From NCBI GenBank assembly GCA_001543395.1, contig LPNG01000013.1, forward strand, positions 1 to 34,349: a stretch of DNA of 34,349 bases, written 5' to 3'. The stretch comes from Candidatus Alcium sp. F082 (GTDB lineage Bacteria > Bacteroidota > Bacteroidia > Bacteroidales > F082). Numbering within the stretch: position 1 is the stretch's first letter; every line of letters begins with the position of its first letter. Shown here piece after piece: positions 3,701 through 34,169 of the stretch. Both the position numbers and the translations under genes were made by a program. The notes below the pieces were generated by a model, which saw only the letters and a program-made list of their open reading frames with translations, was not told the origin of the DNA and ran no database searches.

Positions 3701-6700
3701 AGGGCAAACTCAACGACCCGAAGAGCCGTTGGGCCGGCATCATGCGCCGCATGGAGTCGATTGACTTCGAAGCCACCAACATCGAATACATCGAGTTCTG
3801 GCTGATGGATCCCTTCGCACAAGAAGACTTCGCCAACAACCCTGGTAAGCTGTACATCAACTTGGGTGACATCTCGGAAGACATCCTCCGCGACGGCCGC
3901 AAGTTCTACGAAAACGGCCTGCCCACCTCCGACAGGGTTGAAAACGTCGACACCACCATCTGGGGCCGCGTGCCTACCATGCAGGACCTCGTCGGCACGT
4001 TCAACAACTCATCGGAAGCCCGCCAGTATCAAGACGTGGGTTACGACGGTCTGCGCGACGCGGACGAACGCACCTTCTTCGAGAACACCTACCTCAACGC
4101 CATCAGAAACCGTTTCGGTGAGAACTCGGCCGCTTATGTCAACGCCTACGATGACCCGGCGGGCGACAACTACCACTACTTCCGCTCCAGAGATTGGGAT
4201 ACCCCCGAAGACGAAGAGCACAGAAGCATCCTGGCCCGTTATAAGCACTTCAACGGCCCTGACGGCAACTCACCTGCCGACATCCAACAGACCGACGGCT
4301 ACCAAAACAGCAACTCCACCCTGCCCAACGCCGAAGACATCAACGGCGACAACACCTTGAGTGAGTCGGAGCGCTACTACCAATATGTCATCGAATTCGA
4401 CCCGGCCAAGATGGTCGTCGGTCAAAACCACATCGCCGACATCTTCCATTCTACGCCCACCCTGCCCAACGGCACCGTGGGCAGCTGCACCTGGTATCAG
4501 TTCCGCATCCCTGTGAGACAACCCGACAAGGTCATCGGCCACATCGACGACTTCTCGTCCATCCGTTTCATGAGAATGTTCCTGACCGACTTTGAGAAAC
4601 CCGTCGTGCTGCGTTTCGCCACCCTCGACCTCGTGAAAGGCGAATGGCGCACCTACTCGCAGAGCATCCAAGCCCCTGGCGAATATGAGCCCAACGACAT
4701 CAACAACAATACGACCTTCGACATTTCGGCCGTCAGCGTCGACGAGAACAGCCGCCGCGACCCGGTGCCTTACGTCATTCCGCCCGGCATCCAACAGGAA
4801 CGTGTGATCGGCATGACGCAGACCACCCGTATCAACGAGCAGTCACTGCAAATGACCGTCCAGAACCTCGTCGACGGCGATGGTAGGGCCATCTACAAAG
4901 CCACCGACTTCGACCTGCGGCAATACAAATACCTGAAGATGTTCGTCCACGCCGAAGCCGCCCACGACGACGAGCCTCTCGACGACCAAGACCTGACCGT
5001 GTTCATGCGTATCGGTACCGACTTCACCGAGAACTACTACGAATACGAAGTGCCCGTGAAGGTGACGGCATGGGGAACGGCCTACACGCAAAAAGAAGCC
5101 ATCTGGCCTGAAATCAACAACATTGACATCCGACTGGAAGACCTCGTTGAAGTGAAACAACGACGCAACGAGGCCATGAACCAGCCCAACAGCAACGTCA
5201 GGCTCAACTATATCTACTCCGAAAAAGTCAAGAAGGGTACCATCGACAACCGGGACTACTACCACACCATCAAGGTGATCGGTAACCCGAGCATCAGCGA
5301 CGTGGAGGCCATGATGATTGGTATCCGCAACCCGAAACGACAGAACCTGGCCGACACCGACGACGGACTGCCAAAGAGCGCCGTCGTGTGGATCAACGAG
5401 CTGCGTCTTACCGACTTGAGCAGCAACGGTGGTCTGGCTGCTACGGGCCGACTGGAAGCCACATTGGCTGACCTGGGCCGTATGAGCGTGAGCGGTTCCT
5501 ACAGCTCCGCTGGATTCGGTGCCTTGGACAGCGACATTACCAGCAACACCTTCGAGGCCCATTCCGCCTTCAACGTCAGCACCGACCTCGAATTGGGCAA
5601 GTTCTTCGAGAACACCGGCCTCAAGATCCCGATGCACCTCGACTACAGCGAGAACAAGATCACGCCGCTCTATAACCCCTACGACCCCGACATCAAGCTG
5701 AAAGATGCCTTGGCCGCCATGAATAGCGACGAGGAGCGCGAAGCCTTCACCTCCACCATCCACGACTTCACCCGACAGAAGAACATCAACTTCATGAACG
5801 TCAGGAAAGAGCGCGTCACGAAGAAGAAAAACAAAGGCGATGAAGGCGAGAAACAGGAAGGCGGCAGACGTGACCCCAACAGGGCGCTCGGTCGTGGCAA
5901 CAACGTGCCTAAGGTACACATCTACGACATCGAGAACTTCAACCTCTCCTTCTCCTACAACGAGACCTTCCAGGAGAACACCGACATCAAATACTACATG
6001 TTGAAGACCTACCGCGGTGGCTTGGGCTACAACTACGCCGGCAACCCGAAGCCTGTCGAGCCGTTCGCCAAGGCCAAATGGGCATCGAAACCCGCCTTGC
6101 AGATCATCAAGGACATCAACTTCTACTATCTGCCCAAGAGCATCGTCTTCAACACCGAGATGTACCGCAACTTCTCGCAACGCGAGATGCGTAACAAGAG
6201 CGGCGGTGAGATCATCATCAGCCCGACCTTCTCGAGACAATGGGACTGGAGCCGTAACTACCAGCTGCGTTACGACCTCACCAAGTCGCTGACTTTCGAC
6301 TACTCGGCTCAAGCACAGGCCTACATCTACGAGCCCGCTGGCTACGTCGACAAGAACACCGACCCCGAGACTTGGCAGAAAAACCAAGACACCATCAGGA
6401 ACGAACTCAAGCATCTTGGATCGATGTCAAGATTCCAACAGAACTTCAACGCCAGCTACACGCTGCCTATCAACAAGATCCCGATCTTCAACTGGATCAA
6501 TGCCAGCGCCAACTACCAAGGCACCTACAACTGGGTAGCTTCCGCACAGTCCATCCAGCCCCGCTTGGGTAACGAGATTGAAAACTCCAACAACATCCAA
6601 GGCAACGCCACACTTGACTTCACGAAGTTGTACAACAAAGTGCCGTACCTGAAGCAGATCAACACGCCGCAACGGCGCAATAACAACGCCAATAACAAGG

Positions 6701-18041: not shown

Positions 18042-19565
18042 TCATCTGATGACCACCTTTTGAACTTTCACTTCATTGTCCTTAGCGAGGCGGACGACAT
18101 AGAGGCCTTCGCTGATGCCTGAGAGGTCGCAGCTATTGCCTTTCAGCGTCATCTGGCGCACCAGGCGACCAGTGATGTCGACGAGGCTGAGCTCGGCGTT
18201 TTGCACATCCTCGTTGAAGTAGAGGTTGCTGCCCTTGACGAAGCAGAAGTTCTGCTGACCGTTCTCCTCGACGCCAGTCGTTGACCTGAAGACCAGCATG
18301 AAGCGGGCCTCGTTATCGTTCTTGTCGGCGGCGAACTGGTAATCGGGCTGCACGAGCAGGTCGATGTCGGCGCCGGTCTTGTTGTCGATGAGGTGGAGGT
18401 ATTCCATATCAACGTTGATGTCAACGCTGAGGGTGTAGGTGCCATTGGCCATAGCCTTGAAGTTGACGGGCATGCTGTTGGCGCCGTTGCTGTTGACCAC
18501 TGCATAGTCATCATCTTCCTGCGGGATATAGAGTTTGGTGTTGCTGTCGTTAAGCATGAACTTAGGTAGCGTGCTGCTCTCGTTGAAGCGCACGATGGCA
18601 CGGTCGATGGTGTTGCCACGGTCTTGGAGCACGTTGAGGACGATCTGCTCCTTGCTGCCCGAGCCCGATTGCGTGAATTGGATCTGCTCGTTGTCGTTTT
18701 CAGCGATGACGAAGATGCCCTGCATGGCAGCGACGCCAGTGCCTGTGGCAGTGATGATCTCGGTGCCTGCCGTGTTCATAACATAAAACGGGCGGTCGAG
18801 GATGGCAGCCGTCGCGAAGGGGTTGCCCACGAGGTTCCAGCCTTCGAAGTCAAGTCCGCCGGTCTTACGCAGCGTCACCTTACCATCGCCGCTATAGGGC
18901 ACGCCGGTGAAGCTGAGGGTGATATCGGTACCGTGGGCATAGAGGTAGCCCTTGCCCGACTCGAGGTTGAAAGGCGTGGTGCCGTAATTGCGCCATTCTA
19001 GTGCTTGAGCCTGATCAAAGTAGAACAGGTCGAAATCGCCGGAGGTCATGCCTTCAACTTGGGCAGGGTTGATGCCGTCAAACGGCGGGGCGATGAGGTA
19101 GTAGTTACCGTCGGTGGTGCCGTAGCCGGTGATGGGGAGGGTAAAGGTTTGAGGCTGGGGAGCGGGGCTGGTGAAGGAAATTTCAAACCAATCTGGATAA
19201 ATACCATATTGCTGATTATCCACATATGATACTTCCGTTGCACAGTTGTAGTTAAGTTCTTCACCTATAGAATGATCATATAGCCTAAAAGTGATTAAAT
19301 CGCCATCATCAGTACCTTTAATTGATAGCATATAGATTTGTTTGTTTTCATACTCAAAAGTAGGTAAAGCTGCGCCACGACATACTTCACCGCAAAATGC
19401 ACCAATTTCAAGATTTGCATTATTTTGATATTCATTATCGATAACTATTACGCTATTGCACGTCATAGTGCCTGAGAAACCAGTAGCGGGAGTCCAGTGC
19501 AAAGACTGACCTTGAATTAAGTTAGCGATGGCTATGAATAAAGTTAAAACCCATGCTTTTTTCAT
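18042..19565 (-). CDS. Secreted protein with T9SS type A C-terminal sorting domain
   Basis: A 507-residue exported protein. After a signal peptide (MKKAWVLTLFIAIANLIQG) comes a domain with the hallmark LEIGAFCGEVCRGAA (about 50-66) that is also found twice in the next gene. The middle (about 145-300) has a Bacteroidales-type layout of GKGYLYAH followed by a GWNLVGNPF segment. The last 70 residues are a T9SS type A domain: AELSLVDITGRLVRQM, SEGLYVVRL and the terminal Lys-Val-rich VQKVVIR. It should therefore pass through the SprA channel and be attached to or released from the surface. Function beyond this is unknown. The first 125 codons are A+T-rich compared with the rest. The 51-base gap to the upstream T9SS gene has no consensus promoter, suggesting one transcript. 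Confidence 0.85.
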   Translation of the reverse strand: MKKAWVLTLFIAIANLIQGQSLHWTPATGFSGTMTCNSVIVIDNEYQNNANLEIGAFCGEVCRGAALPTFEYENKQIYMLSIKGTDDGDLITFRLYDHSIGEELNYNCATEVSYVDNQQYGIYPDWFEISFTSPAPQPQTFTLPITGYGTTDGNYYLIAPPFDGINPAQVEGMTSGDFDLFYFDQAQALEWRNYGTTPFNLESGKGYLYAHGTDITLSFTGVPYSGDGKVTLRKTGGLDFEGWNLVGNPFATAAILDRPFYVMNTAGTEIITATGTGVAAMQGIFVIAENDNEQIQFTQSGSGSKEQIVLNVLQDRGNTIDRAIVRFNESSTLPKFMLNDSNTKLYIPQEDDDYAVVNSNGANSMPVNFKAMANGTYTLSVDINVDMEYLHLIDNKTGADIDLLVQPDYQFAADKNDNEARFMLVFRSTTGVEENGQQNFCFVKGSNLYFNEDVQNAELSLVDITGRLVRQMTLKGNSCDLSGISEGLYVVRLAKDNEVKVQKVVIR

Positions 19566-19616: not shown

Positions 19617-21140
19617 CTATTTCACAATAACTCTGCCGTGATAAACAGTTCCTGATTTGCAGATGATTGTAATGTTGTACAATCCAACAACAGGAATCCC
19701 ACTCAATAAAGGATGTGACAGTCCAACATCATGACGAATCATATTACCCTGTGCATCAACAAAGATAACCTCCGAAATCACTTCATCATCAGGTATCATT
19801 ACAGTAAAGGACTCATTTCTGTTGACAGGATTGGGGAATAACACAATTTGTGCAGTATTATTCTGGCTTGCGAATTCGACAGGATATGGTTGATTATATT
19901 CACCCACAATTCCGTTTTCTGTAAATGCTAATCGAGTGTCACTTTCCATGCTCAAAAAACTGTCATTAGTATTAATGCATTTAAATGAGATATCATCACC
20001 TTTCTGACCACTAATGGTCATCATTACATAATACCTATCCAATGATTCGATGTAGAAAGCTCTACCACTACCACGACATTCTCCATCAACAAAAGCACCT
20101 AACTCAATTTCATCAGTTCTTTGTTCCTCTCCGTTAATTTTGATAATTGCCATCAAACACATATTGTCAGCATATCCATGTACGTTGCTGTTCCAATGTT
20201 TCACTATACTTTCAGCGATTGGTGTAACTTGAGCCCTAGTATTTGAAAACACCAAAGTCTTATTGTTTGTCGAATTTGAATAATAAAGGTATCCATTACC
20301 AGGAGAAAGGGTAAAAGAAGAAGGCTGCCAACCTATCCCAGGAAAGTACTGTGCATAACCCTCCTGGCTTTTAAGGATATCATTAACTGAAGGGACAAAA
20401 TCTCCAAGAGCAGAAGATATGATTTGGGTTTGATTAACCGGGTAACCAATCCAATTCCATTGGTATGAAAGAGTAATAGGATGGTCCTCAGGAGAGGCCA
20501 AAACTCCTGTCACTGATAAAGGGCATGAATTTGTCACATCAATTTTATACCCTTCTTCGTTTGTAATTGAAATGTTGCCCACCCATTGGTTCATAAAGGA
20601 CATATACTGAGCATAGGATTCCTTGCTTTTAATCATAATGCCATTACTTCCAAGGCAATTCTCCAACTGTTCCAATCCATTATTACCATTCATTTCAATT
20701 GGTGTCGACCACCAAGTCCAACCTTCAGCCATCGCCGTCGTCTGCGTCATCGTTTGCTCGTTCGCAAACACCAACTCAACGGGGCTGTTCGGTGTGCCGT
20801 AGCCTTCTTCTTGGCCGGTCAATGTGGTGGTGCAGTTGGTATACTCCTGTGAACCATCATAGAACTTAAAGGTAAAAGCGTCGGGGTTGGTCTCGCCTTC
20901 GTTATAGAAAGCTTGGATCCAGAAATTGCCATCGGTGTGGATGGTGGCCAAGCCACGCAACTCGTCGCCCACAAAGGCGCCCAGCGTACCGGCTTCCTGG
21001 ACCGTTTCGCCCAGTGTCACCTTTGCAACGATCGGTGTGTTACTGCTCTTAGCATGTGAATCAGGGGTACCCCAATTTTGTGCACTTGTCACTCCGCAGA
21101 GGAACAGTGCTGCAACCATTAGTAGTAGAATCTTTTTCAT
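19617..21140 (-). CDS. Multidomain secreted protein with internal WWxP/GY module and T9SS type A signal
   Basis: A 507-residue exported protein. Seen in order: signal peptide (MKKILLLMVAALFLCGVTSA); a GAFVGDELRG domain (about 40-127); a duplicated module at residues 139-299 (GWTWWSTPIE ... SNGIMIKSK ... NWIGYPV ... LSPGNGYLYYS) related to the C-terminal module of the four peptidases in this window; a second GAFVDGECRGSG domain (about 310-420); and a T9SS type A domain from about 430 ending GLYNITIICKSG...RVIVK. Base composition switches sharply near 20720, at the start of the module: N-terminal part G+C-rich, the rest A+T-rich. It has a good promoter at 21176-21206 and probably leads a two-gene unit. 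Likely surface or secreted binding protein; ligand unknown. Confidence 0.85.
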   Translation of the reverse strand: MKKILLLMVAALFLCGVTSAQNWGTPDSHAKSSNTPIVAKVTLGETVQEAGTLGAFVGDELRGLATIHTDGNFWIQAFYNEGETNPDAFTFKFYDGSQEYTNCTTTLTGQEEGYGTPNSPVELVFANEQTMTQTTAMAEGWTWWSTPIEMNGNNGLEQLENCLGSNGIMIKSKESYAQYMSFMNQWVGNISITNEEGYKIDVTNSCPLSVTGVLASPEDHPITLSYQWNWIGYPVNQTQIISSALGDFVPSVNDILKSQEGYAQYFPGIGWQPSSFTLSPGNGYLYYSNSTNNKTLVFSNTRAQVTPIAESIVKHWNSNVHGYADNMCLMAIIKINGEEQRTDEIELGAFVDGECRGSGRAFYIESLDRYYVMMTISGQKGDDISFKCINTNDSFLSMESDTRLAFTENGIVGEYNQPYPVEFASQNNTAQIVLFPNPVNRNESFTVMIPDDEVISEVIFVDAQGNMIRHDVGLSHPLLSGIPVVGLYNITIICKSGTVYHGRVIVK

Positions 21141-21288: not shown

Positions 21289-23928
21289 CTACTGCCCTAT
21301 CAATAGCGTCTTTCTCTCACTGGCGGTGGAATGGTAAACGTAGCCCTTGCCAGGCACGAGGGTTGTAAGGCCACCGGTCCATTCACTACCATTGTAGGTG
21401 GCGGCGCCTTCCTGTCCGATGATTTGGTCGTTTAGGGCAGGCGTGAAACCGCCAAGAGCGGTGGCGATGTTGGCGGGTTGCATCCCCATATAGCCAAACC
21501 AATTATAGCCCTGCAAGATACTGATGGCGGCAGTGGTCACAGGCATACCCGTAAGGGTGAACGTGTCCGCCTCCTGGGTCGCGATTCTGTACATCTGTCC
21601 GGGCACGAAGTCCTGCAGCGTGCCGCTCCATTGGCCGTTCTCGCAGCGCACGAAGCCACCGTCTTGTGATTTGATGAGGATGCCGTTGCTGCCAATGGCG
21701 GCCTCCAACTCAGCCAAGGTCGTCGCCACGACGGGCGTCCACCAGGTCCAGGTGGGGCTTAACTCGACGGTTTGGGTGACGAGACCGGGTACCGTCACGG
21801 TGACACTGTTGGAGGGCTCCGTCTCGCCGCTATAGTAGTTGGTCGTCACATGGTAGGAATAAGTTCCGTCGGCCAGGCCGCTGTCGGTATAATGCGTGTC
21901 AGCGATGGCATTGGCAATGGGTTCGTCGTTGCGGTAGAGGTTGTAGGTGTAAGTGCCGTCTGTGAGGTAGGTATTGATGAGCCAAGCGCAATTATAGCTG
22001 GAATTGGCATCGTATAAAGAGGTAGGAGAAGTACTTCCTGCATAAAATGCATTAGTGTTGTGCTCTGATAGATTAAAACTTGGTGTCGGATAATCCTCTC
22101 CAGTATTCTCTTGCTTCATCACCACCCAAAGATCATCGGTACCTGTAAGGATGGCTGGCTCGTCCAAAATGAAATCATGCCATTCTCTTGCAACCGCTAT
22201 AGGTATTCCCGTGCTGCTAAAAGCCAAGCTGTTAGGATCAGGTTGATTGTTTAGGGTTTTTGTGTAAACAAAGACAGAATAGGTTCCTGGATACACAATG
22301 AATGAGGAAACCTTATAAACTGCTTTGCCTGCATACTGGACTAAATCTGCCGCCAAGTGACGATGGGCATAGTACACCGATGTCCACAGATAGTAAGGGG
22401 TTTCTTCCCCATAATTCAATGTTGCTGTTGGTGTCGTAGGATAGCACCATGCCGGGGCGGTCCAATTAAGATGCACATCTTTGCCGTAGGCGGTTGCTGC
22501 AAGATCGATGACATCAGGAGTTTGATAACCAACAGTGACAGTGACCATATTGGAGGATAATGACAATGCTCCACCAGCATCAACGCTTCGCACAAAGTAG
22601 ACATTATCGCCAAAGAGCGCTAAATCAGTAAAAGTCGTCGATGTGGCGGTACCGATCAAACTCATATCGCGGTAGATATTGTAGCCGGCAGCACCATCGG
22701 CAGCGTTCCAAGCGAGCGTCACATTACGTCCTAGTTGCGTGTAGGTAAGATTAGAAGGAGCACTTGCCGTACATTCCGAAGGATGAATTCCAAAAATGGC
22801 TCCTTGTTCGTCATTGAAAATGCCATTTCCAGAACCTATACCACCAGGTCCAGGATACAAGTTGTCAAGGACATAATATTCGTCAGCATAGCCACTCCAT
22901 CCCCAATTGAAATGGAAATAATTGTCACTAGTATAGCCATCACACACAAAAGAATGCCCACCTGCTGCGCCTCTGCCGTGGTATTGTATGGGCATGTTTT
23001 GGTCCAAATCGGCTTTCAACATAGCCATCCATGTATCGTCATCATACGACGAACGCGAATGATGCTGAACCTCTGACGAATAGTTGTAAAAGCTTTTCAA
23101 AGCGTCAGCAACAGTGGCTGTAGTAGCGCCACTGCCTCCTTCTGATGATGGACCATAATTCATGTTGACCGATACACCGCAATGATACATCAAAGTGGCA
23201 ACAGCTTGTCTTTGTACCTCCGTGTTGGCACTTCCATAGGTGTTAGCCATGTTGTTCCAGTCGTAGTAGGTTGCATTGAAATCCGCAGATTGCACGCCAA
23301 ATTCAGGATGATTACCAGGAAGATAGGAATGACAGCCCAAACCATGTTCTGGATAATTCCAATACTTCATCACCTGAGCCATAGCGGTGGCCACACAACC
23401 AGTAACTGTGCCAGATGGGCACAACATATTATACGGGTAGCCTTGATCCCATCGTGTTTGCACCAACGGCCCCACAACAACCGATCCACTGCGGTTGTAA
23501 TTGCCTTCGGTCAAATCGCGCCACTGTTGAGCGGTTTCGGCAGAAGCTCTCGTTTGATGTTCGATAGCATATTGTATGGCATCGCCATATTCCTCAATCC
23601 AAGCTTTCTTGTTTTCAGGCATATCCTCTGCGACAAACGGGCCATTCAGCGAGTAGCCCAGCACCGGCTGCACGCGGCTGTCGGCCGAAAGGATGACGAA
23701 GCTTTGGTCGGTCGTGAAGACATATAAGTTGGCGAAGCCTATCTCTGCCGAAACATCGGTCAATTGTGCTGTCTTAGCGCCGTTGTTGTCGAGGAAGGTG
23801 GCGGCCGCACGGCGAGCTGTCTCACGGCTCACAGGTTGGGCCTGCATCAGGGTCGTCAGACCCAAGAGCAACGAGGCAATTAGTAAGGTTTTGTTCATCC
23901 TTTTCATACGCATGATTGTGTTTTTCAT
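21289..23928 (-). CDS. Secreted C10-family cysteine peptidase (streptopain/PrtT type) with FN3 domains and shared C-terminal module
   Basis: An 879-residue exported protease. After a signal peptide comes an inhibitory prodomain (about 30-130, SRETARRAAATFLDNNG of the Spi/C10 type). The C10 catalytic domain (about 140-387) has catalytic Cys178 in TVTGCVATAMAQVMKYW, catalytic His325 in AAGGHSFVCDGY and the family NWGWSG motif. Next are an FN3 domain (390-467), a second FN3 domain (468-712) apparently interrupted by a beta-rich insert at about 492-654, and the shared duplicated module at 722-879, which is the extreme C-terminus. No type A or B T9SS signal follows. Several Met codons occur near the start (23928, 23913, 23907, 23898); any leaves the signal peptide intact. 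The -7 box at 23961-23968 gives it its own transcript. Probable extracellular degradation of proteins. Confidence 0.93.
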   Translation of the reverse strand: MKNTIMRMKRMNKTLLIASLLLGLTTLMQAQPVSRETARRAAATFLDNNGAKTAQLTDVSAEIGFANLYVFTTDQSFVILSADSRVQPVLGYSLNGPFVAEDMPENKKAWIEEYGDAIQYAIEHQTRASAETAQQWRDLTEGNYNRSGSVVVGPLVQTRWDQGYPYNMLCPSGTVTGCVATAMAQVMKYWNYPEHGLGCHSYLPGNHPEFGVQSADFNATYYDWNNMANTYGSANTEVQRQAVATLMYHCGVSVNMNYGPSSEGGSGATTATVADALKSFYNYSSEVQHHSRSSYDDDTWMAMLKADLDQNMPIQYHGRGAAGGHSFVCDGYTSDNYFHFNWGWSGYADEYYVLDNLYPGPGGIGSGNGIFNDEQGAIFGIHPSECTASAPSNLTYTQLGRNVTLAWNAADGAAGYNIYRDMSLIGTATSTTFTDLALFGDNVYFVRSVDAGGALSLSSNMVTVTVGYQTPDVIDLAATAYGKDVHLNWTAPAWCYPTTPTATLNYGEETPYYLWTSVYYAHRHLAADLVQYAGKAVYKVSSFIVYPGTYSVFVYTKTLNNQPDPNSLAFSSTGIPIAVAREWHDFILDEPAILTGTDDLWVVMKQENTGEDYPTPSFNLSEHNTNAFYAGSTSPTSLYDANSSYNCAWLINTYLTDGTYTYNLYRNDEPIANAIADTHYTDSGLADGTYSYHVTTNYYSGETEPSNSVTVTVPGLVTQTVELSPTWTWWTPVVATTLAELEAAIGSNGILIKSQDGGFVRCENGQWSGTLQDFVPGQMYRIATQEADTFTLTGMPVTTAAISILQGYNWFGYMGMQPANIATALGGFTPALNDQIIGQEGAATYNGSEWTGGLTTLVPGKGYVYHSTASERKTLLIGQ

Positions 23929-23960
23929 CCTGTTGCGCGATTCGTTTGCAATTCTTTTTG

Positions 23961-23968
23961 CAAAGATA
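23961..23968 (-). promoter_or_regulatory. -7 element for the C10 peptidase gene
   Basis: TATCTTTG on the minus strand, a perfect TAnnTTTG, 32 bases upstream of the ATG. No strong -33 match at 19-21 bases. The gene is separated from the upstream C25 gene by a strong terminator, so its own promoter is expected. Confidence 0.5.
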
Positions 23969-24116
23969 AAACAAATATGAAACGCGTGAAGAAAAAAGCG
24001 GACAGAAATAAATCCGCCCGCTTATCAAGTGTTTTTATTTAAGACGCTTGAGGAACAATTGAGGACATTATTGTTCGCATTTATGTTTCCCGTATCAAAG
24101 CACCTTGAGGATTGTC

Positions 24117-24166
24117 CGTCATTGACTCGCTTCGCATCGTCGATTGCTTCGTTCCTCGCAATGACG
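24117..24166. repeat. inverted repeat in the 302-base gap between C10 and C25 genes
   Basis: CGTCATTG (24117-24124) and CAATGACG (24159-24166) bracket a stretch rich in TCGCTTCG words that recur inverted at 24165-24175. The gap 23929-24230 otherwise holds only the C10 promoter and the C25 terminator; no gene was seen in it. Confidence 0.5.
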
Positions 24167-24184
24167 CGAAGCGACGACGAGGAC

Positions 24185-24211
24185 AAAAAAAGGCCGCCCC
24201 GCGGGGCGGCC
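24185..24211 (-). terminator. strong rho-independent terminator ending the M14-C25-C25 operon
   Basis: GGCCGCCCC (24192-24200) pairs perfectly with GGGGCGGCC (24203-24211). On the minus strand a run of T follows (complement of the A-run at 24185-24191). It lies 20 bases after the stop codon of the C25 gene. Confidence 0.88.
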
Positions 24212-24230
24212 TCATTGGTTTCAGTCATCA

Positions 24231-27200
24231 CTACTGCCTCAAATAGACATAACCATGTCCAGGCTGCAGTGTGGTGAGGGTGCCGCTCCAGCCATTGTTA
24301 TAGGTGGCAGTGTTGCCGTCCTTGTCGGTAATGGTGTCGTCGTTGGCGGGCGTGATGCCGAGGCTACCAAGGGCCGTGGCGATGTCGGCGGCTTGCGTGC
24401 CAGTGTAGCCGATCCAGTTGTAGCCCGACACAATGGTGATTCCGACGTTGCCGACGGCGGTGCCGGTGAGCGCCAGCGAACAGGCGGCGTTGGTCTCTAT
24501 CTTGTACATCTTGCCGGGCTCGATGCTGGTGAGCGTGCCGCTCCAGCTGCCGTTGGCGTATTCGGCGAAGCCGTCGTCTTGCGAGTTGATGAGGAGGCCC
24601 GAAGTGCCGAGGGCGGCCTCGAGTTGCTCGAGGGTGACGTTGACGGTGGGCGTCCACCAGTTGGAGCCTTGGATGAGACTGGCCGTTTGGGTGGCGACCT
24701 CAGTAAAGTTGGCCACCAAGCTGCGGTCGGCGGTGACGGCGAAGCTGTAGCTGGCATCGGCCGACACGGTGGCGGCGTTCTCCGTCCAGTTCACGAAGCC
24801 GTAGCCCGTGTTGGGCGTGGCCGTCACGGTGCAGGTCTCGCCTTCATAGAAGGTGGCACTCATTTCCCCTGTCTCGATTTCGCCTTCCACGATGGTGATG
24901 TCGTCGACGCAGAGGAACCATTGGTCGGTGCAGTCGAAGTGGCGGATGGCCACATAGCCCATGCCGCTGTAGGCGCTCAGGTCGACGGTGTAGGGTGTAT
25001 CGTTATATCCCGCTTGTGACAATGACAAGGTCCAAGTCGCGACAGTCGTGAAGCTGGCGGCATTGGTGTTGTCGGTCGTCGAAACCACCACGGAGAACTT
25101 CTCGGCACAATAACTGGTGTTACGGGCACCTGCATAAAAGGAGATGCTTCCACCCAAGCGCACCTGCGGAGAAACGAGGTAATTGTCGGGGGTGACCGCC
25201 GTGCCACTGCCGCTCGAACTGCCCGAAATGTAGGACTCGGAGAGCATGAAGCCGTCGGAGCTGTTATGGCCGTAGCCAGTGGAGAAGTTATTGTTGGAGG
25301 TGGGATAAGAGGTGTTATGCATCCAACTGTTAGGCGAAGTGGTGTTGCCTTGGAAGGTCGTCCAGCCCTGCCAGCCGTCCTCAAAGTCGTAGGTGAGTTC
25401 TTCTCTATTGCCTCTGCCGCCGAAGGCGACGGTGCCGCCTTCCACAGTGTTGGGAGCGATGGTGACGGTGTATTGCGGGATGGCGGTGAAGGTAGCCGTG
25501 TAGGTGGCGTTCTCCGTCACCGTGAAGGTGTAGGTGGCGTCGTTGCTCACCACGGTGTTGTCCTTCTTCCAGTTGGTGAAGGTGTAACCAGTGTTGGGTG
25601 TGGCTGTAAGGGTGCATTGGTCGCCCAATTCGTATACGCCACCACCATTCACAGTGCCGCCTTCTGCGGGATTTGCCGTAGCGGTAATGACAGCTTGATT
25701 CGTATTGCCCACTACGTCAATCGTACCGAGATACGTCACCTTGTTGTAGCCAAACACACAAAGCGTGAGCTCGGTGTCGGGAGTCAAGGTACCATTGATG
25801 CTGATGTTGGCCGTGGTGCCGCTCACGGTGGCCTTGCCCAAGATGTTGTGGTCGGCATCGGTGATGGTAGCCACAGCCCCGTTGCCATTGTTGACAGTGA
25901 CGCTGTATGAGGTGGCACCCAAGTTAATGTTGCCGTTATGGGTGACGTTCATGGCCTGTGGGGTCTTGGTGCGCAGCATTAAAGTAGGATCACCATAGAG
26001 AACCCATGCTTGGTAGGTACCGACAGCCGATTGATTTGTAGTGCTGTAATTGTCGAAAATGGCAAAAAGCCCATTGACGGCGGCTCCACCTAAAGAACGT
26101 TTGATGTTGTTGCTCTTCAGTTCACAAAGGATGTCGACAAACTCGTCTTGTGCCCACATGGGCGGAATCCAGGGCTGAGAGATGTAGGAGAACATGCCGC
26201 CGATGGCTCCCGTCGGATTATTGCCGTTGGTGGCATGCATCCAAGTCTCGCCAAAGCAATCGCCACTGGAGTAGTCATACTTACCCACCAGGCATGCCAC
26301 CGAGAAGATGAAGGGCAGCTTGTTGTCGTTGGTTAAGGCGTTGACATAAGTGTTCGTGTAGTAAGGTGAGTGGGACTGCCATCCGGTTTCCTGCCCATGG
26401 TTGCAGTAATTGATTATGCCCACGCCACTATTGATATGGTTGCTAATGGTAGTGCACGAAGATGAAGGATATCCGCTCACATTGTAATAATCTTGATAAA
26501 CAGTGCTATAGCCATAGTTCATCAAATCAGTGCGAAGGTTTTCGATATGTTGGTAATCATCTTCGTTGTTATGGCCGCCACTGCCTGCCGAGGTGCTGAT
26601 GCCGAGACCATTTTGGCACCATGTGGCCGAGGTGGTGAGGTCGCGCTCGTAGGTGATGATGCGATTGACTTGGGTGGTCACTTGGGAGGTACTACTAGCT
26701 GAGAAACGTCCGATGAAAATGTCATTGTAAATGTCATTGCCAACCACTTGTCCATAAGGGTTGTCGCCTTTGCCAGCATAACTGGAACCTCCACCTGAAT
26801 AAGTATATCCCGGAATCTGAGCTACATCGCCGACGAGCAGCACATGGGTAATATTGTTGTTGGCATTGTATTGGCTCTGGATATAGGTCTTGATGGCCGA
26901 GTAGGTACTTCCAGCGGTGCTGGTTCCCACGATGGTGGTGTTCACGCCACGGGTCTTCTTCCAGTTGACGAAGTCGGTCATCGAGCTGATGAAGTTGTCG
27001 TAGCAGATGATGAGCAGGTCACCTTCCTCGTCGAGGGGCGTGTAGCGGTTCATCGAGGCTTCGTAGTTGATGAAGTGGCGCTGGTAGACGCTCTTGAAGT
27101 CGGGGTCCATCTTGACGACGTTGCTGCGGCGGCTCTCGATGGTGTTGCTGCCGTTGTCGTCCACCTTGTACATCTCCACCGTCATGTTGTAGTACACGCG

Positions 27201-27758
27201 GAGGGTCTTTGTGGCGGGGTTATAAGCAAAGGGATAAAGCACCATGTTTTGTCCGCGAAAGTCGCGGATGATATAAGGCTCATAAAGGCCAATGTTACTG
27301 GCTGGGAAGAACGCATCCTCGCTGTAGCATGCGCCATAGGTGTAAGGCACATCCTCGGGGTTGATGGTACGGGGGAAGTCGCCCTTTGAAGGGGCCACCT
27401 CGATGCCTTCGAAGTCCCTATACTGGGCGTCAACGACGCGGATGCTCATGCGCGCCTTGTCGCCGATGAGGACGGGGATACCCGTCATAGGCATATCGGG
27501 TTCGCCGGCATGGGCAGTGCTGACGGCCTTGGGCAGGGTGATGACTTGTGCCTCACCTCTCGGCGTGGTGACGGAGGCAGTATAGAAGCCCGGCACCTGC
27601 ACGTTGACCTGGATGCTGTTTTCGGAGCTGCTGATGAGCTGGGTGCGGTAGCTCTCGGGCTGACCGCCAAGGATGTTATGCCATTGTGGCGCGGCTTGCT
27701 GGGCGAAGAGGCTCAAGCCGACGGCCAGAAGGATGCTAAGGATGATGCCTTTTTTCAT
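24231..27758 (-). CDS. Secreted C25 (gingipain-type) cysteine peptidase with nested cleaved-adhesin domain
   Basis: A 1175-residue exported protease. Signal peptide 1-19; propeptide-like region to about 230; C25 catalytic domain about 245-600 with catalytic His454 in IINYCNHGQETGW and Cys489 in FSVACLVGKYD, followed by the family CFGETW; an Ig-like C25 C-terminal domain about 600-685; an InlB-type repeat 688-758 (ANPAEGGTV..ATPNTGYTFTNW); a second InlB-type repeat begun at 762, interrupted by a cleaved-adhesin-like domain (about 785-957, DFEDGWQGWT ... YLVSPQV ... FLCVDDITI) and resumed at 965-1019; and the shared duplicated module at 1031-1175. The product stops at GHGYVYLRQ, about 10 residues short of its paralogues' ends. 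No type A or B T9SS signal is present. Gap to the upstream C25 gene is 29 bases. Confidence 0.93.
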   Translation of the reverse strand: MKKGIILSILLAVGLSLFAQQAAPQWHNILGGQPESYRTQLISSSENSIQVNVQVPGFYTASVTTPRGEAQVITLPKAVSTAHAGEPDMPMTGIPVLIGDKARMSIRVVDAQYRDFEGIEVAPSKGDFPRTINPEDVPYTYGACYSEDAFFPASNIGLYEPYIIRDFRGQNMVLYPFAYNPATKTLRVYYNMTVEMYKVDDNGSNTIESRRSNVVKMDPDFKSVYQRHFINYEASMNRYTPLDEEGDLLIICYDNFISSMTDFVNWKKTRGVNTTIVGTSTAGSTYSAIKTYIQSQYNANNNITHVLLVGDVAQIPGYTYSGGGSSYAGKGDNPYGQVVGNDIYNDIFIGRFSASSTSQVTTQVNRIITYERDLTTSATWCQNGLGISTSAGSGGHNNEDDYQHIENLRTDLMNYGYSTVYQDYYNVSGYPSSSCTTISNHINSGVGIINYCNHGQETGWQSHSPYYTNTYVNALTNDNKLPFIFSVACLVGKYDYSSGDCFGETWMHATNGNNPTGAIGGMFSYISQPWIPPMWAQDEFVDILCELKSNNIKRSLGGAAVNGLFAIFDNYSTTNQSAVGTYQAWVLYGDPTLMLRTKTPQAMNVTHNGNINLGATSYSVTVNNGNGAVATITDADHNILGKATVSGTTANISINGTLTPDTELTLCVFGYNKVTYLGTIDVVGNTNQAVITATANPAEGGTVNGGGVYELGDQCTLTATPNTGYTFTNWKKDNTVVSNDATYTFTVTENATYTATFTAIPQYTVTIAPNTVEGGTVAFGGRGNREELTYDFEDGWQGWTTFQGNTTSPNSWMHNTSYPTSNNNFSTGYGHNSSDGFMLSESYISGSSSGSGTAVTPDNYLVSPQVRLGGSISFYAGARNTSYCAEKFSVVVSTTDNTNAASFTTVATWTLSLSQAGYNDTPYTVDLSAYSGMGYVAIRHFDCTDQWFLCVDDITIVEGEIETGEMSATFYEGETCTVTATPNTGYGFVNWTENAATVSADASYSFAVTADRSLVANFTEVATQTASLIQGSNWWTPTVNVTLEQLEAALGTSGLLINSQDDGFAEYANGSWSGTLTSIEPGKMYKIETNAACSLALTGTAVGNVGITIVSGYNWIGYTGTQAADIATALGSLGITPANDDTITDKDGNTATYNNGWSGTLTTLQPGHGYVYLRQ

Positions 27759-27787
27759 AGTGTGATTGTTATTTCGTGTTTCTTGGG

Positions 27788-30700
27788 TTAGAATGTCAAT
27801 GTTCTGCCTTGCGTTGCTTTTGAGTGGTACACGTAGCCATGACCAGGCTCAAGGGTTGTGAGCGAGCCACTCCAGCCGTTGTTGTAAGTGGTCGTATTGC
27901 CCGCTTTGTCGGTGATGGTATCACCGTTGGTAGGCGCAAATCCACTGAAAGCTGCGGCAATCGTTTTTGACTGGCTTCCCGTGTAGCCGAACCAGTTATA
28001 GCCGGGCATAAGGGTCAGGCTGACACCCGTGGCGGGTTCGCCGCTCAAGGTAAGGCTGACGGGAGCCGTGGTCTCGATCTTATACATCTGTCCAGGTGCA
28101 ATCTCCGTCAACGTGCCGCTCCACAGGCCGTTGTCATAGCGGGCGAAGCCGTCGCCTTGCGTGTTGATGAGGACGGCGTTGCCGCCGAGGGCCTCCTCAA
28201 GTTGCTCAAGCGTCATCGCCTTGGTGGGGGTCCACCAGTTGCAGCCGGCAGCCAAGGTGGGATAGACCTCGCCGTTGAGGCTGACATTGGAGGTGATGTC
28301 GCCCGTGGTGACGGTCAGCGTTTCGTTGTATTGGCCTTGGCTGAGGCCGCTCTTGAGACGAACGTAGACATTGGCGGTGACCAGTTCGCCCTTCGTCAAA
28401 GTGAGCGTGCTACTGTACGTGCCGTTCTCACTGGCGCAAATCTCATAATCAGCAGGGGCGTTAATGGTCACATCTTCTTCCAATTCTGCACCAACGACAG
28501 CTATGCACTGTGCCACCAAAGGAGTGAAGCCCGTAAGTACATTAGGTGATACTGCCAACGAGGCACTGGTGCCAGGATGGGTGATGGTATAGGTAACCTG
28601 GTTCTTCTGTGATAACCGCGTGCCTGACGCACTCATCGAAGCGGGATCGTAATTGGTATTGTCGTTGTACTTGTAAACTGCTGTGTTGCTACTAGCGGAA
28701 TACACATAGAACGAAGGTGAACTACTACTACTGACGTAAGAGCCAGTATTGTCATCGACCGTAAGGAGAAGATTGCTTGTACCATTGTATTCAAATGGAG
28801 TATCCAAGGTAATTGTTGTCCATCCCGAGGCTGCAAAAGTGACGCTTCCAGAAAACACGCGAGCAGAAGTACTTTGCGAGATCCATGCAGAATTACCTGA
28901 GAAAGAACTTGTAGTTGTATGGCTCAAATAAACATCCAATGACCTTGAAGTCGACTTATTGTTTCCTACCTGGAATGCAATTGCCGTAATAGTACCTGCC
29001 TGACCGATTTCTAAACTTGTGTAGATTTGTTGAGTGAGGGAGTAGTTGTAATAAGCATAAGTCGGTATATAACTGTTGCTACTTGCTCCGCTTCCTATTA
29101 CGACATTCTCGACCTCATTAAGCTTGAAGATGCCCACCACAGTCACGTCATAATCGGGCATGATAAACTGGTTGTCGGTCACGCTGACGGCGGTGGTTAC
29201 GTCACCCGTCTTGAAGACCACCCAAGTGGAAAGGTAGTAGTCGTCATCAGGGGATGCGCTCAGCATTATTGTTGTACCTGACAAAGCGCATGTTGGGTTT
29301 GCGCTGATGGTGCCGTTCGACACCTCGGCCAAGGTCACCGTGTAACCCTCGACGAAGGTGGCGCTCACTGTCACATCGCTCTCAGGCATGGTGAATTGGT
29401 TGTCGGTGACCGTAATGGCATTGTTATTCTCGTCTCTCACGTCCCATGCCGACAAGCAGTAGCCTTCGTCGGGCGTCGCGGTCAAGGTAACCGTTACGTT
29501 GGCATAGGCCTGCTGAGGGGCACTGATGCTGCCGTGCTGGGTCGGGTTGCAGGTGATGTCGTATTGCGTGCCTCCCACGATGCTGATGGTACCAAAATAG
29601 GGCTGGTATTGCTGGCGTGTGACGACCACATAGAGGGTGCCACTGGTAGGGATGGCATTGGTGAAGTTCACGGTGGCCACTCCCGACGAGTTGGCCTCGG
29701 CAACACCGTAGATGACCGAGCTGTTGTCGGTGACGGCGACGTATGAACCCGCCAAAGCGTTAACGGTGATAGAGGTGGTACCTGGTGTGACCGTGCTGGG
29801 TATCGTCACGGTGTTCACTTCGGGTTTGGTGATGTAAGGCATCACGGAACCATCACCAAAGGTGTGGTAGAACTGGAAGTAATAGTGGGCCGAGTTGTTG
29901 CAGTCGCCATCGGTGATACTAGAATTGGTATTGCCGTTGGTGACGGCCTGCTGCACGGCGAGATTGCCAAGATAGAGCAGTGCTGACGCCGAGTTCCAAT
30001 ATTGGTCTTCAAACATAATATCATAAACGCCTTTTGAAGAAGCCGATTGTGTCGGGTAGTTGCCTGCAGAGTAGGAATGTGCTCCAACTGCCCAATAAAA
30101 GTCCTCATACCAATAGGAATAGGGCGAGCAGCCAACGTAGGCAACGGCACCGGCATTGGGAACACGAATCATGGTTTCTGCAAAACAGGCATTGGTGCCA
30201 ATGGCAGAACCAGGTGAATAGGTCGTGGTCGTGTTGTTGAAGTTACCCGTGAGACAGCAGTTGCCGACGCCGAAAAAGTATTTGCCCGAATTGGTCAGAC
30301 AGGCCACCTGTGCGGCCGTCATCTTGGGCTGATACCATTCCTGGCGGTCGCCGTGGGCGGTGTAGTTGAGGAAACCGACGCCAGAGTTGATGCTGGTATA
30401 AACACCGTTACCCATGGTCGTGCCGGTTCCAGTCGCTGTTCCATCGTATCCTGTCGTGCTGCTAGTGGATACGGTAGCTTCAATATTGCCATTCTCGAAA
30501 CCGCCGTAGGTGGTGTTGCTCGATTTGAAGTAGTAGTTCGTGGCGTAGTTGATGGTGGGTTTTGCCACACGGCTGGTCCAGCTCGAGTCCCAACCGCCGA
30601 CGAGGATGACGTTGTTCAAATAGTCGCCGCCATCAGTCATCTCGAATTTCTCGTAGGTCAGCACCTTGTTGATATAGTTGGTCAGATGGGTGGTGTTCTC

Positions 30701-31789
30701 CACAGACATACGGCTGTAGTACATGTCAGGGAAGTAGTCGCTGGAGTTAGAGGAGAAATCGACCGAGGAATATCCCAAGTCTGAAGCACAAGCGTAACTG
30801 ACTGTTTTGGTCATATATTGCGGCACCTGCCCCGTGTCACCAATCACAACCAGATAGGTATAGGCGTTGCCGGCCGACACCGAGGCGTTGTATTTCGTCT
30901 TGATGAACGAGGCGATGGCGCTTGCCGTGGTCCCTGTCTCGCTGGTGTAGTAGATGTCTACATAGTAGCCCTTCTGGAGTTTCCATTGCAGCCAACTCTC
31001 CAAAGCGCTGTTGCCTTGGAAGCCCGAGTAGCAGATCACGAGCATCTTGACGGGTGTGTTGTAGAAGTCGGGGTGGTCGGTATAAGCGTCCCTAGTGGCA
31101 CCCATCAGCATGTCGATGTTGAAGATCTGGTCGTAGACGCCCTGGAAGGCGACGTTGGCGGTGCTCTTGAACATCCGTTCCGTGCTTTCGGCGTCACCGT
31201 TCTCGAAGTCGACGGTCACCTCGATGTCGTTAAACACTTTGACGGTGCCGCCGGCGGGGTTGTAGCGGACGGGTTGCACGATGAGTCGTCCAAGCGTGAT
31301 GCCACGCATGGTGCCAAGCACTTCGACCATGGCAATCGGGTCGTCGTTATAGCTGTCGCGGGCATAAGCTTCCTCGTTGTAGGCATATTCTACTGTACTC
31401 GGGTCTACGTCCTTGCGGACAGGAGCCTGCATGGCTGAGAGGGTGCCAATGCCGTAGTCGCTCAAGGTATATTGAGTTTCGGAATGGGCGCCTATGGTAA
31501 CGAGGGGCGTAGCTCCAGTTGGGATGGCGATAAGCCTGGTGAACATCGGCAGTTGCGGCTCGCCGACGTTACCGTTGGGATAGGTGCCTTCGATGAAGAT
31601 TTCCGAGAGTTCGCCACGAGTGGTTTCAATATTTCGGGAATCAAGGCTGGAGAACGAGAAGTTAGCCTTAAGACCTGTCATGTCGCTCTTGACGCATTCC
31701 ACCCTGTCGGCCGAACGCAGTTGTATTTGTTGTGCCATGGCACTCAGGCCGAAGGCAAGAAGCAATAGTGAGAATAGTACTTTTTTCAT
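27788..31789 (-). CDS. Secreted C25 (gingipain-type) cysteine peptidase, second member
   Basis: A 1333-residue exported protease. Signal peptide 1-19; propeptide with the family EPQLPMFTRLIAIPTGA stretch (about 77-94); catalytic domain about 245-655 with His479 in FLNYTAHGDRQEWY and Cys512 in GVGNCCLTGNFN (Cys511 is adjacent; 512 aligns with the neighbour's Cys489), then CFAETM; an Ig-like domain about 660-740; two InlB-like repeats (742-812 and 816-888, each with TVTDNQF.MP..DVTV); a Bacteroidales-type beta domain about 893-1070 (YNYSLTQQIYTSLEIG ... LLLTVDDNTGSY); a choice-of-anchor-like stretch about 1075-1175; and the shared duplicated module at 1182-1333. It differs greatly from the downstream C25 gene outside the catalytic motifs, so it is not a recent tandem copy. 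The gap to the upstream M14 gene is 19 bases. Confidence 0.93.
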   Translation of the reverse strand: MKKVLFSLLLLAFGLSAMAQQIQLRSADRVECVKSDMTGLKANFSFSSLDSRNIETTRGELSEIFIEGTYPNGNVGEPQLPMFTRLIAIPTGATPLVTIGAHSETQYTLSDYGIGTLSAMQAPVRKDVDPSTVEYAYNEEAYARDSYNDDPIAMVEVLGTMRGITLGRLIVQPVRYNPAGGTVKVFNDIEVTVDFENGDAESTERMFKSTANVAFQGVYDQIFNIDMLMGATRDAYTDHPDFYNTPVKMLVICYSGFQGNSALESWLQWKLQKGYYVDIYYTSETGTTASAIASFIKTKYNASVSAGNAYTYLVVIGDTGQVPQYMTKTVSYACASDLGYSSVDFSSNSSDYFPDMYYSRMSVENTTHLTNYINKVLTYEKFEMTDGGDYLNNVILVGGWDSSWTSRVAKPTINYATNYYFKSSNTTYGGFENGNIEATVSTSSTTGYDGTATGTGTTMGNGVYTSINSGVGFLNYTAHGDRQEWYQPKMTAAQVACLTNSGKYFFGVGNCCLTGNFNNTTTTYSPGSAIGTNACFAETMIRVPNAGAVAYVGCSPYSYWYEDFYWAVGAHSYSAGNYPTQSASSKGVYDIMFEDQYWNSASALLYLGNLAVQQAVTNGNTNSSITDGDCNNSAHYYFQFYHTFGDGSVMPYITKPEVNTVTIPSTVTPGTTSITVNALAGSYVAVTDNSSVIYGVAEANSSGVATVNFTNAIPTSGTLYVVVTRQQYQPYFGTISIVGGTQYDITCNPTQHGSISAPQQAYANVTVTLTATPDEGYCLSAWDVRDENNNAITVTDNQFTMPESDVTVSATFVEGYTVTLAEVSNGTISANPTCALSGTTIMLSASPDDDYYLSTWVVFKTGDVTTAVSVTDNQFIMPDYDVTVVGIFKLNEVENVVIGSGASSNSYIPTYAYYNYSLTQQIYTSLEIGQAGTITAIAFQVGNNKSTSRSLDVYLSHTTTSSFSGNSAWISQSTSARVFSGSVTFAASGWTTITLDTPFEYNGTSNLLLTVDDNTGSYVSSSSSPSFYVYSASSNTAVYKYNDNTNYDPASMSASGTRLSQKNQVTYTITHPGTSASLAVSPNVLTGFTPLVAQCIAVVGAELEEDVTINAPADYEICASENGTYSSTLTLTKGELVTANVYVRLKSGLSQGQYNETLTVTTGDITSNVSLNGEVYPTLAAGCNWWTPTKAMTLEQLEEALGGNAVLINTQGDGFARYDNGLWSGTLTEIAPGQMYKIETTAPVSLTLSGEPATGVSLTLMPGYNWFGYTGSQSKTIAAAFSGFAPTNGDTITDKAGNTTTYNNGWSGSLTTLEPGHGYVYHSKATQGRTLTF

Positions 31790-31808
31790 CGTATGTTATG
31801 TTTGTTAT

Positions 31809-34169
31809 TTATTCAAAAGTAATGTTACGGCTTTCTTGGGCGTTGGAGTGGTATACATAGCCGTGACCCGGCACAAGGATGAAGTTATCATTCCAACTGC
31901 CATTGGTGAAAGTGGCGGTAGTACCATCCTCTGCGGTGATGGTGTCGCCCTCGGTGGGAGTGAAGTCGCCCAAAGCCATGGCAACATTCTTCGACTGACT
32001 ACCTGTGTAGCCAAACCAGTTGTAGCCCGGAAGGAAGGTGATCGTAGAGACCACGGCCTCGCCGCTCAAGGTGAATTCCGTTGCTGCTGTGGTCAGGATG
32101 CGGTACATCTGTCCCGCGACTATCGTATCAAGAGTGCCGCTCCAGCCTTCGCCATCGTAACGTGCAAAGCCTTCGTCTTGCGAGTTGATGAGAATGGCGT
32201 TGCTGCCAAGGGCGGCTTCGAGGTCATCGAGCGACATCTCAAGCGTGGGGGTCCACCAGTTCCAATCTATACCGAGGCTCACCACTTGCTCGGGCGGGCA
32301 ATTGCCTTCTGTGTAGAATGTGATGTTGTTGTTTTGGCTGGTACTTATTTGGAAAGAACCATTGCTATAATACAGGTAATAATTGGTATTGTTCCTGGTA
32401 ATGTAAATGCCATTGGCATTGATATACCATCTACCATATTGGCTAGTAGTCGTATTCCAAGTAAGGGTGTTTGAATAGGTGGCTCTTGCCAAATATCTGT
32501 TGTTGTATCTAATATAGTACTGTCCATTGCTTCCATACGCAGTCAAAGTGACTTGTGGGATGGTGCTCTCCTCGCCTACCGTAAAACCGTTTTCCGTCGG
32601 GGTAACGTCGACCGAGGTGGTGGTCACCGACGATGAATTATTGTGCGTTGGCATGTGCAATGTCGAGTCGTCGAGATAGCCCATCACGTAAGAACCGTCA
32701 GTAGACGGCATCAGTTGTTCGTAGCAATTCATCAATACCGGACAATTGCCTTCGGGAGTGAGATAGACATCGAGGTCAACGCGCTGACCATCAGCCACAG
32801 TCACATTCATTCTTTCAGAGCAATAGCCCTCTTTTGTAAACTGAATTATATAGCTGCCACCTTTAATGGGTCGGTGGAAATCACCCACGGAATGCGTAGT
32901 GATAAACGAAGTTTCGCTGTCGTGGTTGAGCACTGTCACCTTCACGCCTTCAACAGGTTCGCCCGTGTCGGCGTCACGCACCACGCCATGAACGCCATTG
33001 CGGCATTGCTCCATGAAGGCCAGCATGCTGTTGTGGTTGTAGTTCCAAAAGTTGGACAGTTGAGAAGCACTGGGAGTTTTGGTGGTAGAGCACTCCACAG
33101 TCACCTCGCGGCATTGTCCGTAGGCATTCATGTAGTCCTGCCGGCTACCCGTAATGACATACCAGGCGGCGCCGTTAGTGACACCGTCGGAATAGGTGTC
33201 CGACATGTAGGAAGAATAGGTCTGTCTGGCGATTTGGACATATTCGGTGCAGACATATTCATACCAATCCTTGTCGGCGTGATCGTCGTAAACGGCATCC
33301 CAAGGATAGTTCATCACCTCTGCCCCACCGTGATAGTTGGCACTCATGGTGAACAGGTTCTCGTCGCCCATGGCCATCGTCCAAATGGTCTCATCCTCAT
33401 AGCTGTTTCCATCGGGATGGGCACCTTGGTAGTAGTCTTTGTAGTTGCGGTTCAAGTCGATGTTGTTTCCATTATAACGTTGGGCACTATTGACAGTGCT
33501 GTTACCACCCTTGTATGTGCCGTCGGGGTTAGTCAGAGGCATAATATAGATGTCGAGATCGTTCACCAAGTTAACGATACGGCTATCGGTGCTGGTGCAT
33601 AGTTCGTCAATAAGGCGCAGCATGAGAATCATACCAGTAATCTCATCGCCATGCATCGTAGAAGTATAAAGGAACTTCGGCTTGCCTTCGGGGTTTCCGT
33701 TGTTAATGCGTACCCCTAGGAGTTGGCGATGGGCACTTGTGGAAAGGGTACCAAGGCTGAACAAAGTGCATTCACGACCTTCAATGGCCTTGTCTGAAAA
33801 GCCTTCCATCATGGACACGTATTGATCATAGGTCAAATAGCTGTCCCAGTTATAAGTGCCTTGGCCGTCCCACATGGTGACGTTAGCGCGCAGCGAAGGC
33901 GGCGTCTGCAACTCGGGCTGGTAGCCCAGGCTGAGCAGTTTGTCGTATTCCTTTTGGTTGGCGTAGGCCACCACCGTCTTGCCATCGGTGGCATCGACAG
34001 AACAGATCTCGCCGATGGACTGTATGGCCAACGGGTCGTCGACGCTGAGCGTGAAATAATACTCGCCACGCTCGCGCATGAGCTGACCGAGTTTCCTTTG
34101 GCTTTGGGCAAAGACACTGTTGCCGACCAAAGCGGCAAGAATGAGGCAAACAAAACGAAGCACCTTCAT
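31809..34169 (-). CDS. Secreted M14 zinc carboxypeptidase with shared C-terminal module
   Basis: A 786-residue exported metallocarboxypeptidase, resembling Porphyromonas CPG70 in layout. Signal peptide 1-21; M14 domain about 105-390 with zinc ligands His173 and Glu176 (STMHGDEITGM), the NNIDLNRNY substrate-binding motif (235-243), third zinc ligand His280 (SANYHGGAEVMNYPWD) and catalytic Glu359 (REVTVECSTTKTP). A carboxypeptidase regulatory-like beta domain follows (about 391-470). Then come an unassigned Asn/Tyr-rich domain (477-622) bracketed by two EGNCP copies, and the shared duplicated module (634-786). It would trim C-terminal residues from peptides, possibly those produced by the C25 enzymes encoded just downstream. 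It is first in the M14-C25-C25 operon. Confidence 0.93.
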   Translation of the reverse strand: MKVLRFVCLILAALVGNSVFAQSQRKLGQLMRERGEYYFTLSVDDPLAIQSIGEICSVDATDGKTVVAYANQKEYDKLLSLGYQPELQTPPSLRANVTMWDGQGTYNWDSYLTYDQYVSMMEGFSDKAIEGRECTLFSLGTLSTSAHRQLLGVRINNGNPEGKPKFLYTSTMHGDEITGMILMLRLIDELCTSTDSRIVNLVNDLDIYIMPLTNPDGTYKGGNSTVNSAQRYNGNNIDLNRNYKDYYQGAHPDGNSYEDETIWTMAMGDENLFTMSANYHGGAEVMNYPWDAVYDDHADKDWYEYVCTEYVQIARQTYSSYMSDTYSDGVTNGAAWYVITGSRQDYMNAYGQCREVTVECSTTKTPSASQLSNFWNYNHNSMLAFMEQCRNGVHGVVRDADTGEPVEGVKVTVLNHDSETSFITTHSVGDFHRPIKGGSYIIQFTKEGYCSERMNVTVADGQRVDLDVYLTPEGNCPVLMNCYEQLMPSTDGSYVMGYLDDSTLHMPTHNNSSSVTTTSVDVTPTENGFTVGEESTIPQVTLTAYGSNGQYYIRYNNRYLARATYSNTLTWNTTTSQYGRWYINANGIYITRNNTNYYLYYSNGSFQISTSQNNNITFYTEGNCPPEQVVSLGIDWNWWTPTLEMSLDDLEAALGSNAILINSQDEGFARYDGEGWSGTLDTIVAGQMYRILTTAATEFTLSGEAVVSTITFLPGYNWFGYTGSQSKNVAMALGDFTPTEGDTITAEDGTTATFTNGSWNDNFILVPGHGYVYHSNAQESRNITFE

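Follow-up and report, generated by a model that had tools for sequence, protein, structure and literature searches.

Four neighbouring secreted peptidases in one stretch of DNA end in the same domain, which raises the question of what this domain does for enzymes of different families. The stretch, 34,349 nucleotides long and called the window here, encodes on its minus strand between 18 and 34 kb an M14 carboxypeptidase, two C25 peptidases (C25a and C25b), a C10 peptidase and two further secreted proteins, as called from open reading frames (ORFs) and Pfam (Table 1). Pfam places an I69 propeptide in the C10 peptidase, a propeptide and an Ig-like domain in both C25 peptidases, and an M14 domain in the carboxypeptidase. 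The original prediction described the four peptidases as unrelated, which is true between families but not of the two C25 peptidases, which are 25% identical over about 870 residues (BLASTP). It also placed the T9SS translocon SprA in the same window, and correctly so.

Table 1. Genes, domain copies and other features of the window.
Feature	Position	Strand	Details
M14 carboxypeptidase, 786 aa	31809..34169	-	PF00246 1.9e-43; signal peptide by sequence
Terminal domain copy, M14	31809..32288	-	residues 628-786, the protein's last residues
C25 peptidase b, 1333 aa	27788..31789	-	PF01364 3.4e-48; signal peptide by sequence
Terminal domain copy, C25b	27788..28267	-	residues 1175-1333
C25 peptidase a, 1175 aa	24231..27758	-	PF01364 1.8e-58; signal peptide by sequence
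Terminal domain copy, C25a	24231..24683	-	residues 1026-1175; ends PGHGYVYLRQ
Terminator-like hairpin 3' of C25a	24190..24213	-	10 pairs, 8 GC, T run
C10 peptidase, 879 aa	21289..23928	-	PF01640 1.4e-62; signal peptide by sequence
Terminal domain copy, C10	21289..21765	-	residues 722-879
ORF 19617-21140	19617..21140	-	secreted protein with internal domain copy, next gene after C10
Fifth domain copy, internal, ORF 19617-21140	20235..20729	-	residues about 138-302, then about 205 residues
Type A-like end, ORF 19617-21140	19617..19865	-	residues 426-507; 66 bits, local type A model (circular)
Neighbouring secreted protein, called type A sorting domain	18042..19565	-	TIGR04183 2.7e-8, PF18962 1.8e-8
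SprA, T9SS outer-membrane translocon	778..8217	+	TIGR04189 2521 bits

The four tails are copies of one homologous domain of ~155 residues (pairwise identity 46-64%, E < 1e-38, BLASTP). The original prediction had placed this domain at the end of all four minus-strand ORFs, with coordinates that proved correct, the N-terminal edge being off by 6-18 bases. It had overlooked a fifth copy, which lies inside ORF 19617-21140 and is 30-33% identical to the four tails (E < 1e-18, BLASTP), a further terminal copy that the same genome holds outside the window (G000:C110), and an internal two-fold duplication, in which the two halves of the domain are homologous to each other (hhalign probability 98.8%, E 6e-17). 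The C25a tail stops short of the other copies' last strand (window 24231-24260), and C25a-type tails in several genomes likewise lack this strand and have a recurring RQ or RQQ end.

No named family accounts for the domain. Neither Pfam nor NCBIfam has a family that covers the window copies or turns up credibly among 101 aligned ones; the commonest Pfam match is a weak one to NfeD (10 of 101). Models of the T9SS type A, B and C sorting domains match none of the 101 copies, and NCBIfam gives no type A, B or C match in the four window proteins at E<=1, which bears out the claim that these lack a type A or B domain. Nor did HMM searches or hhalign find such a domain hidden within the tails: neither the halves nor the whole domain resemble a local type A profile (hhalign probability < 0.4%). 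AlphaFold modelled the M14 terminal copy with a pLDDT of 95.9 and a pTM of 0.89; a separate model of lobe 1 reached 94.6 and 0.82. Compared with the PDB, these two models gave no clear match, and the matches listed include no T9SS C-terminal domain (CTD), although the domain may still have the Ig-like seven-strand sandwich of type A.

As for the layout of the locus, the gaps between M14 and C25b and between C25b and C25a measure 19 and 29 bases, and M14, C25b and C25a may form one transcript. Terminator-like sites are not commoner in the region than in shuffled sequences (12 vs 14.1). A 12-base motif, TTTATCTTTGCA, which we take to resemble a Bacteroidota promoter element, lies on the minus strand at 21174-21185 and 23959-23970, before ORF 19617-21140 and the C10 gene; it occurs three times with at most one mismatch vs 0.18 expected, a count that is not an independent test because the pattern was derived from those same two sites. 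The two further secreted proteins have a stretch in common (residues 315-436 of ORF 19617-21140 and 23-144 of ORF 18042-19565; 26% identity, E 8e-7) that no Pfam family covers. The end of ORF 19617-21140 is called by neither Pfam nor TIGR04183, and its score with our local type A model is circular, the family being part of the training set; some of its relatives have PF18962 or bear the name 'T9SS type A sorting domain-containing protein'.

How do relatives of these enzymes end? From scans of the 60 genomes of the window's genus we fetched 180 regions with C10, C25, M14 and PAD homologues, dropped 19 that were cut by the end of a contig or region, and were left with 161 closed homologues. Type A sorting domains end 130 of these (128 by the local model, two added by TIGR04183), the window domain ends 27, and only four have neither. 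For M14 (the best 80 of the 105 matches listed after the window's own) the split is 53 type A to 14 tails, and for PAD (60 regions of 92 matches, leaving out short frames and fragments) it is 51 to 2. The 17 type A ends and two tails of C25 and the nine of each in C10 come from 20 regions per family, chosen non-randomly among the matches listed, so that these proportions are not to be taken as frequencies. One C25 with a type A end carries the domain internally as well. The four with neither ending are a broken PAD gene in the window's own genome, one C25 and two C10, of which one looks type A-like by eye. The PAD homologue of the window's own genome is split in two pieces (G000:C3:50943-51745), and the C25 with neither ending (L373, G326:C7) has instead a weak dockerin-like stretch at its end, of 17.1 bits, below the cut-off of 22.9.

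Because the 54 ends used to build the local type A model include internal-form proteins, we checked it with TIGR04183 on the M14 ends: TIGR04183 matches 53/53 closed non-tail M14 ends vs 0/101 domain copies. A tree of M14 catalytic domains (68 rows) needs four changes of ending, three of them forced by supported branches, vs about 14 in shuffles. At least three switches of ending are thus implied for M14. Nested in the tail clade are the type A M14s of two genomes, G341 and G379 (79% and 77% complete), neither of which has a domain match anywhere. With a single C-terminus per protein, it is in part trivial that type A and the domain exclude each other there; more informative are the scarcity of homologues that lack both endings and the switching on the M14 tree.

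Because the tail is placed where most related enzymes carry the known export tag, it is probably a new T9SS address label. Judged from sequence, we put the probability that it serves the T9SS as an alternative sorting signal, one that can be exchanged for type A, at roughly 0.55. The enzymes would reach the periplasm by their Sec signal peptides and then fold; recognition of the tail, either direct or by way of a PorV-type or PorP/SprF-type shuttle, would bring them to SprA, and the tail would then release them or hold them at the surface. In this simplest reading, the tail would take over the role of the type A signal along with its position.

The cargo fits such a role. Tails occur on M14, C10, C25 and PAD enzymes, endonuclease I, BspA-type LRR proteins and fn3 proteins. 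In one genome (G201), the terminal copies identified by Pfam sit on a C10 peptidase, an endonuclease I (a protein of 617 aa), two BspA-type LRR proteins and an fn3 protein, and those identified by likeness to the window proteins on an M14, a second C10 and a contig-edge fragment. Among 26 terminal ORFs whose N-terminus is complete, simple script rules find a Sec signal peptide in 24 and a lipobox in none; in 15 of the 24, Gln follows the predicted signal peptide cut. To occur as one domain on many unrelated Sec cargo is a trait of T9SS sorting signals, and the tail has it.

The domain is not confined to protein ends. Among 160 distinct closed ORFs its position is bimodal: in 70 it ends 0-9 residues before the stop, none of them with a type A end, and in 90 it lies 55-517 residues before the stop, 88 of these at 160-243. 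A type A end follows the internal domain in 67/90 ORFs by the local model, and on visual inspection most of the 23 without a model match resemble type A (exceptions are L082, L098 and L107). An independent protein database repeats this pattern. With the M14 tail as query, the 120 matches listed of 242 all end 0-5 residues past the domain, and with the internal copy as query, 82 matches comprise 75 internal copies with type A, six terminal copies and one internal copy without type A. Since internal copies sit in proteins that already have a type A end, the domain is not a dedicated sorting signal everywhere, and there it must have a job other than sorting.

This observation lends weight to the main rival of the sorting reading, a module that binds a glycan, LPS or another surface partner and holds the enzymes at the surface or on their substrate, export being left to an unrecognised signal elsewhere in the protein. 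The abundance of conserved Trp and Tyr in the domain would suit binding. Nevertheless, a binding module would not be required to alternate with type A in the same enzymes, and no credible match to a CBM or other binding family turned up: the window proteins match no CBM family, and the 101 copies give isolated weak matches such as CBM_4_9 and CBM_48 (1/101 each). Moreover, terminal copies have lost aromatic residues that are retained in internal ones. Position 89 is Trp in 83/85 internal vs 5/69 terminal copies, and position 123 is Phe or Tyr in 69/85 internal copies and mostly Asn, Gly, Ser or Thr in terminal ones, in groups that also differ in kinship. We consider a binding module unlikely. 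The original prediction had left sorting, anchoring and ligand binding side by side as roles for a non-canonical module; the comparison of homologues, in which the domain and type A take turns at one place on the same enzyme families, speaks for sorting rather than ligand binding. Sorting may be a new use of the domain, taken up by terminal copies, in which residues such as Trp 89 have changed.

Could the tails instead be leftovers, that is, internal forms that have lost their last about 200 residues together with the type A end, on enzymes that stay in the periplasm? A tree of the domain needs seven changes between internal and terminal position, five of them forced, and because the two forms interconverted several times, some tails may be truncations of internal forms. 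In one genome (G370), terminal copies occur on open frames as long as 4238 residues, possibly internal forms that have been shortened. As a general account this is quite improbable, since tails recur on many enzymes of a single genome and are terminal in every one of the database matches listed for the M14 tail, plain loss of the signal is rare (the 4/161 with neither ending), and gingipain-like peptidases kept in the periplasm would presumably be harmful. We also looked for a type A domain hidden behind the stop by a frameshift, in three frames over 600 bases past each of the four stops, and found no convincing remnant; the best type A score, after C25b, was 5.9 bits (E 0.008 for 12 sequences).

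The internal copies suggest one more route, in which tailed enzymes ride on a type A carrier by pairing their tail with a homologous internal copy, such as that of ORF 19617-21140. Folded proteins can pass the T9SS, and an internal-copy gene adjoins tailed genes in the window and in loci L017 and L018. The contents of single genomes argue against such pairing. In G363, which is 89% complete, all seven domain matches are terminal, with no internal copy among them to act as carrier, and in G201 (99% complete) eight terminal copies stand against one internal. G363 makes the ride unlikely, and we regard it as very improbable overall. Other genomes are mixed: G370 has six of seven copies terminal, the seventh with 68 residues behind it and no type A match; G355 has eight of nine terminal, two of them in fragment-like ORFs of 79 and 119 residues; and G376 has mostly internal copies, two with 16 residues behind them and no type A match.

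If the tail addresses proteins to the T9SS, it should keep company with SprA. In the order, scanned with at most 11 candidates scored per genome, the domain occurs in 58/324 genomes, and in the window's genus in 47/60. SprA is present in 305/324 genomes of the order and in 58/58 of those with the domain; the domain is thus found in 58/305 SprA-positive and 0/19 SprA-less genomes. Equal abundance in the two groups would have counted against the original prediction and is not seen, and neither of the other two outcomes that would have done so, a match to a named domain or a type A or B domain within the tails, came up. The contrast, which pools terminal and internal copies, is weak because most of the order has SprA (P about 0.02, from a script that takes no account of kinship). 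The closest named contigs come mostly from ruminant-gut Bacteroidales, and the window's bacterium is likely a species of this kind. The terminal form may be narrow in range: in the order scan, every one of the 28 loci inspected from other genera has the domain in an internal position; a settled genus is available for part of the named contigs.

We also considered partners for the tail. A PorV-family gene is present in 60/60 genus genomes; its copy number does not track the tail, and no partner emerged. A second, divergent PorV-family gene (243-255 bits) occurs in seven genomes (G379:C34, G363:C14, G365:C5, G325:C20, G343:C19, G380:C5 and G351:C23), about 5 kb from porV in six of them. Directly before porV, many of the 60 genus genomes have two tandem PorU-like C25 genes (for example, G000:C65:37798-44772), and others one, among the matches listed. 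By eye and among the matches listed, the tandem pair occurs in 21/23 genomes with at least six domain matches vs 21/37 with at most four. A dedicated sortase encoded by this pair was rejected, since G370 has tails although one copy alone is listed for it, and since the domain finds no match in five genomes that do have the pair. Eight other window ORFs, scanned at E<=1e-5, include no PorP/SprF-type product.

Taken further, these results would describe a fourth T9SS signal class, with two lobes and no relation to types A, B and C. Gut Bacteroidales would have recruited this domain from modules inside surface proteins to stand in for type A on gingipain-like, carboxypeptidase, deiminase and nuclease cargo, switching in both directions, so that the SprA machine would read two unrelated domains as the same address. 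We give this fuller account about even odds. How the T9SS recognizes its cargo is not fully settled, and an unrelated domain in the same place offers a natural comparison of what recognition needs. If the account is true, cargo lists drawn up with TIGR04183 and TIGR04131 miss part of the secretome of gut Bacteroidales, as the seven of seven terminal copies in G363 and eight of nine in G201 indicate.

How does the domain compare with known sorting signals? CTD types A, B and C are named in one source (PMC10202324), and A and B in another (PMC12618676). In the open-licence literature we found no fourth or unclassified CTD type, no CTD-less T9SS cargo and nothing relevant on rumen gingipain-like peptidases. 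The window domain is not filed under any of the three types because it fails all three sequence tests. With the type A CTD (TIGR04183, PF18962) it shares the extreme C-terminal position, Sec-signal secreted peptidases, PAD and others as hosts, SprA-positive genomes and the same enzyme families; it differs in having no HMM match or profile similarity to type A, in being longer and in being internally repeated. The type A CTD is described as an Ig-like seven-strand sandwich (PMC11285876), and type A ends as having a common fold at sequence identities under 40% (PMC12618676). The type B CTD (TIGR04131), which uses a PorP/SprF shuttle, is likewise a long C-terminal signal, given as 150-235 residues, and orphan type B substrates are reported with no cognate PorP/SprF nearby (PMC12618676); the window domain has no TIGR04131 match. 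Type C (ChiA; NF033708), which the domain does not match either, is likewise a minor class, described as recognized late and in few proteins (PMC10202324).

The closest parallel in gene arrangement is provided by the KLIKK proteases of Tannerella forsythia, which are likewise different secreted proteases encoded by clustered genes and sharing one C-terminal domain (PMC4404884). The KLIKK domain is described as a beta-sandwich like the CTDs of P. gingivalis (PMC11285876), a likeness that is not apparent so far for the window domain. According to the same source, T9SS CTDs are apparently necessary and sufficient for export and can be swapped from one cargo to another; the CTDs of RgpB, PPAD and CPG70 export a fluorescent protein in P. 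gingivalis (PMC11285876). The window enzymes are the same kinds of cargo as RgpB, PPAD and CPG70.
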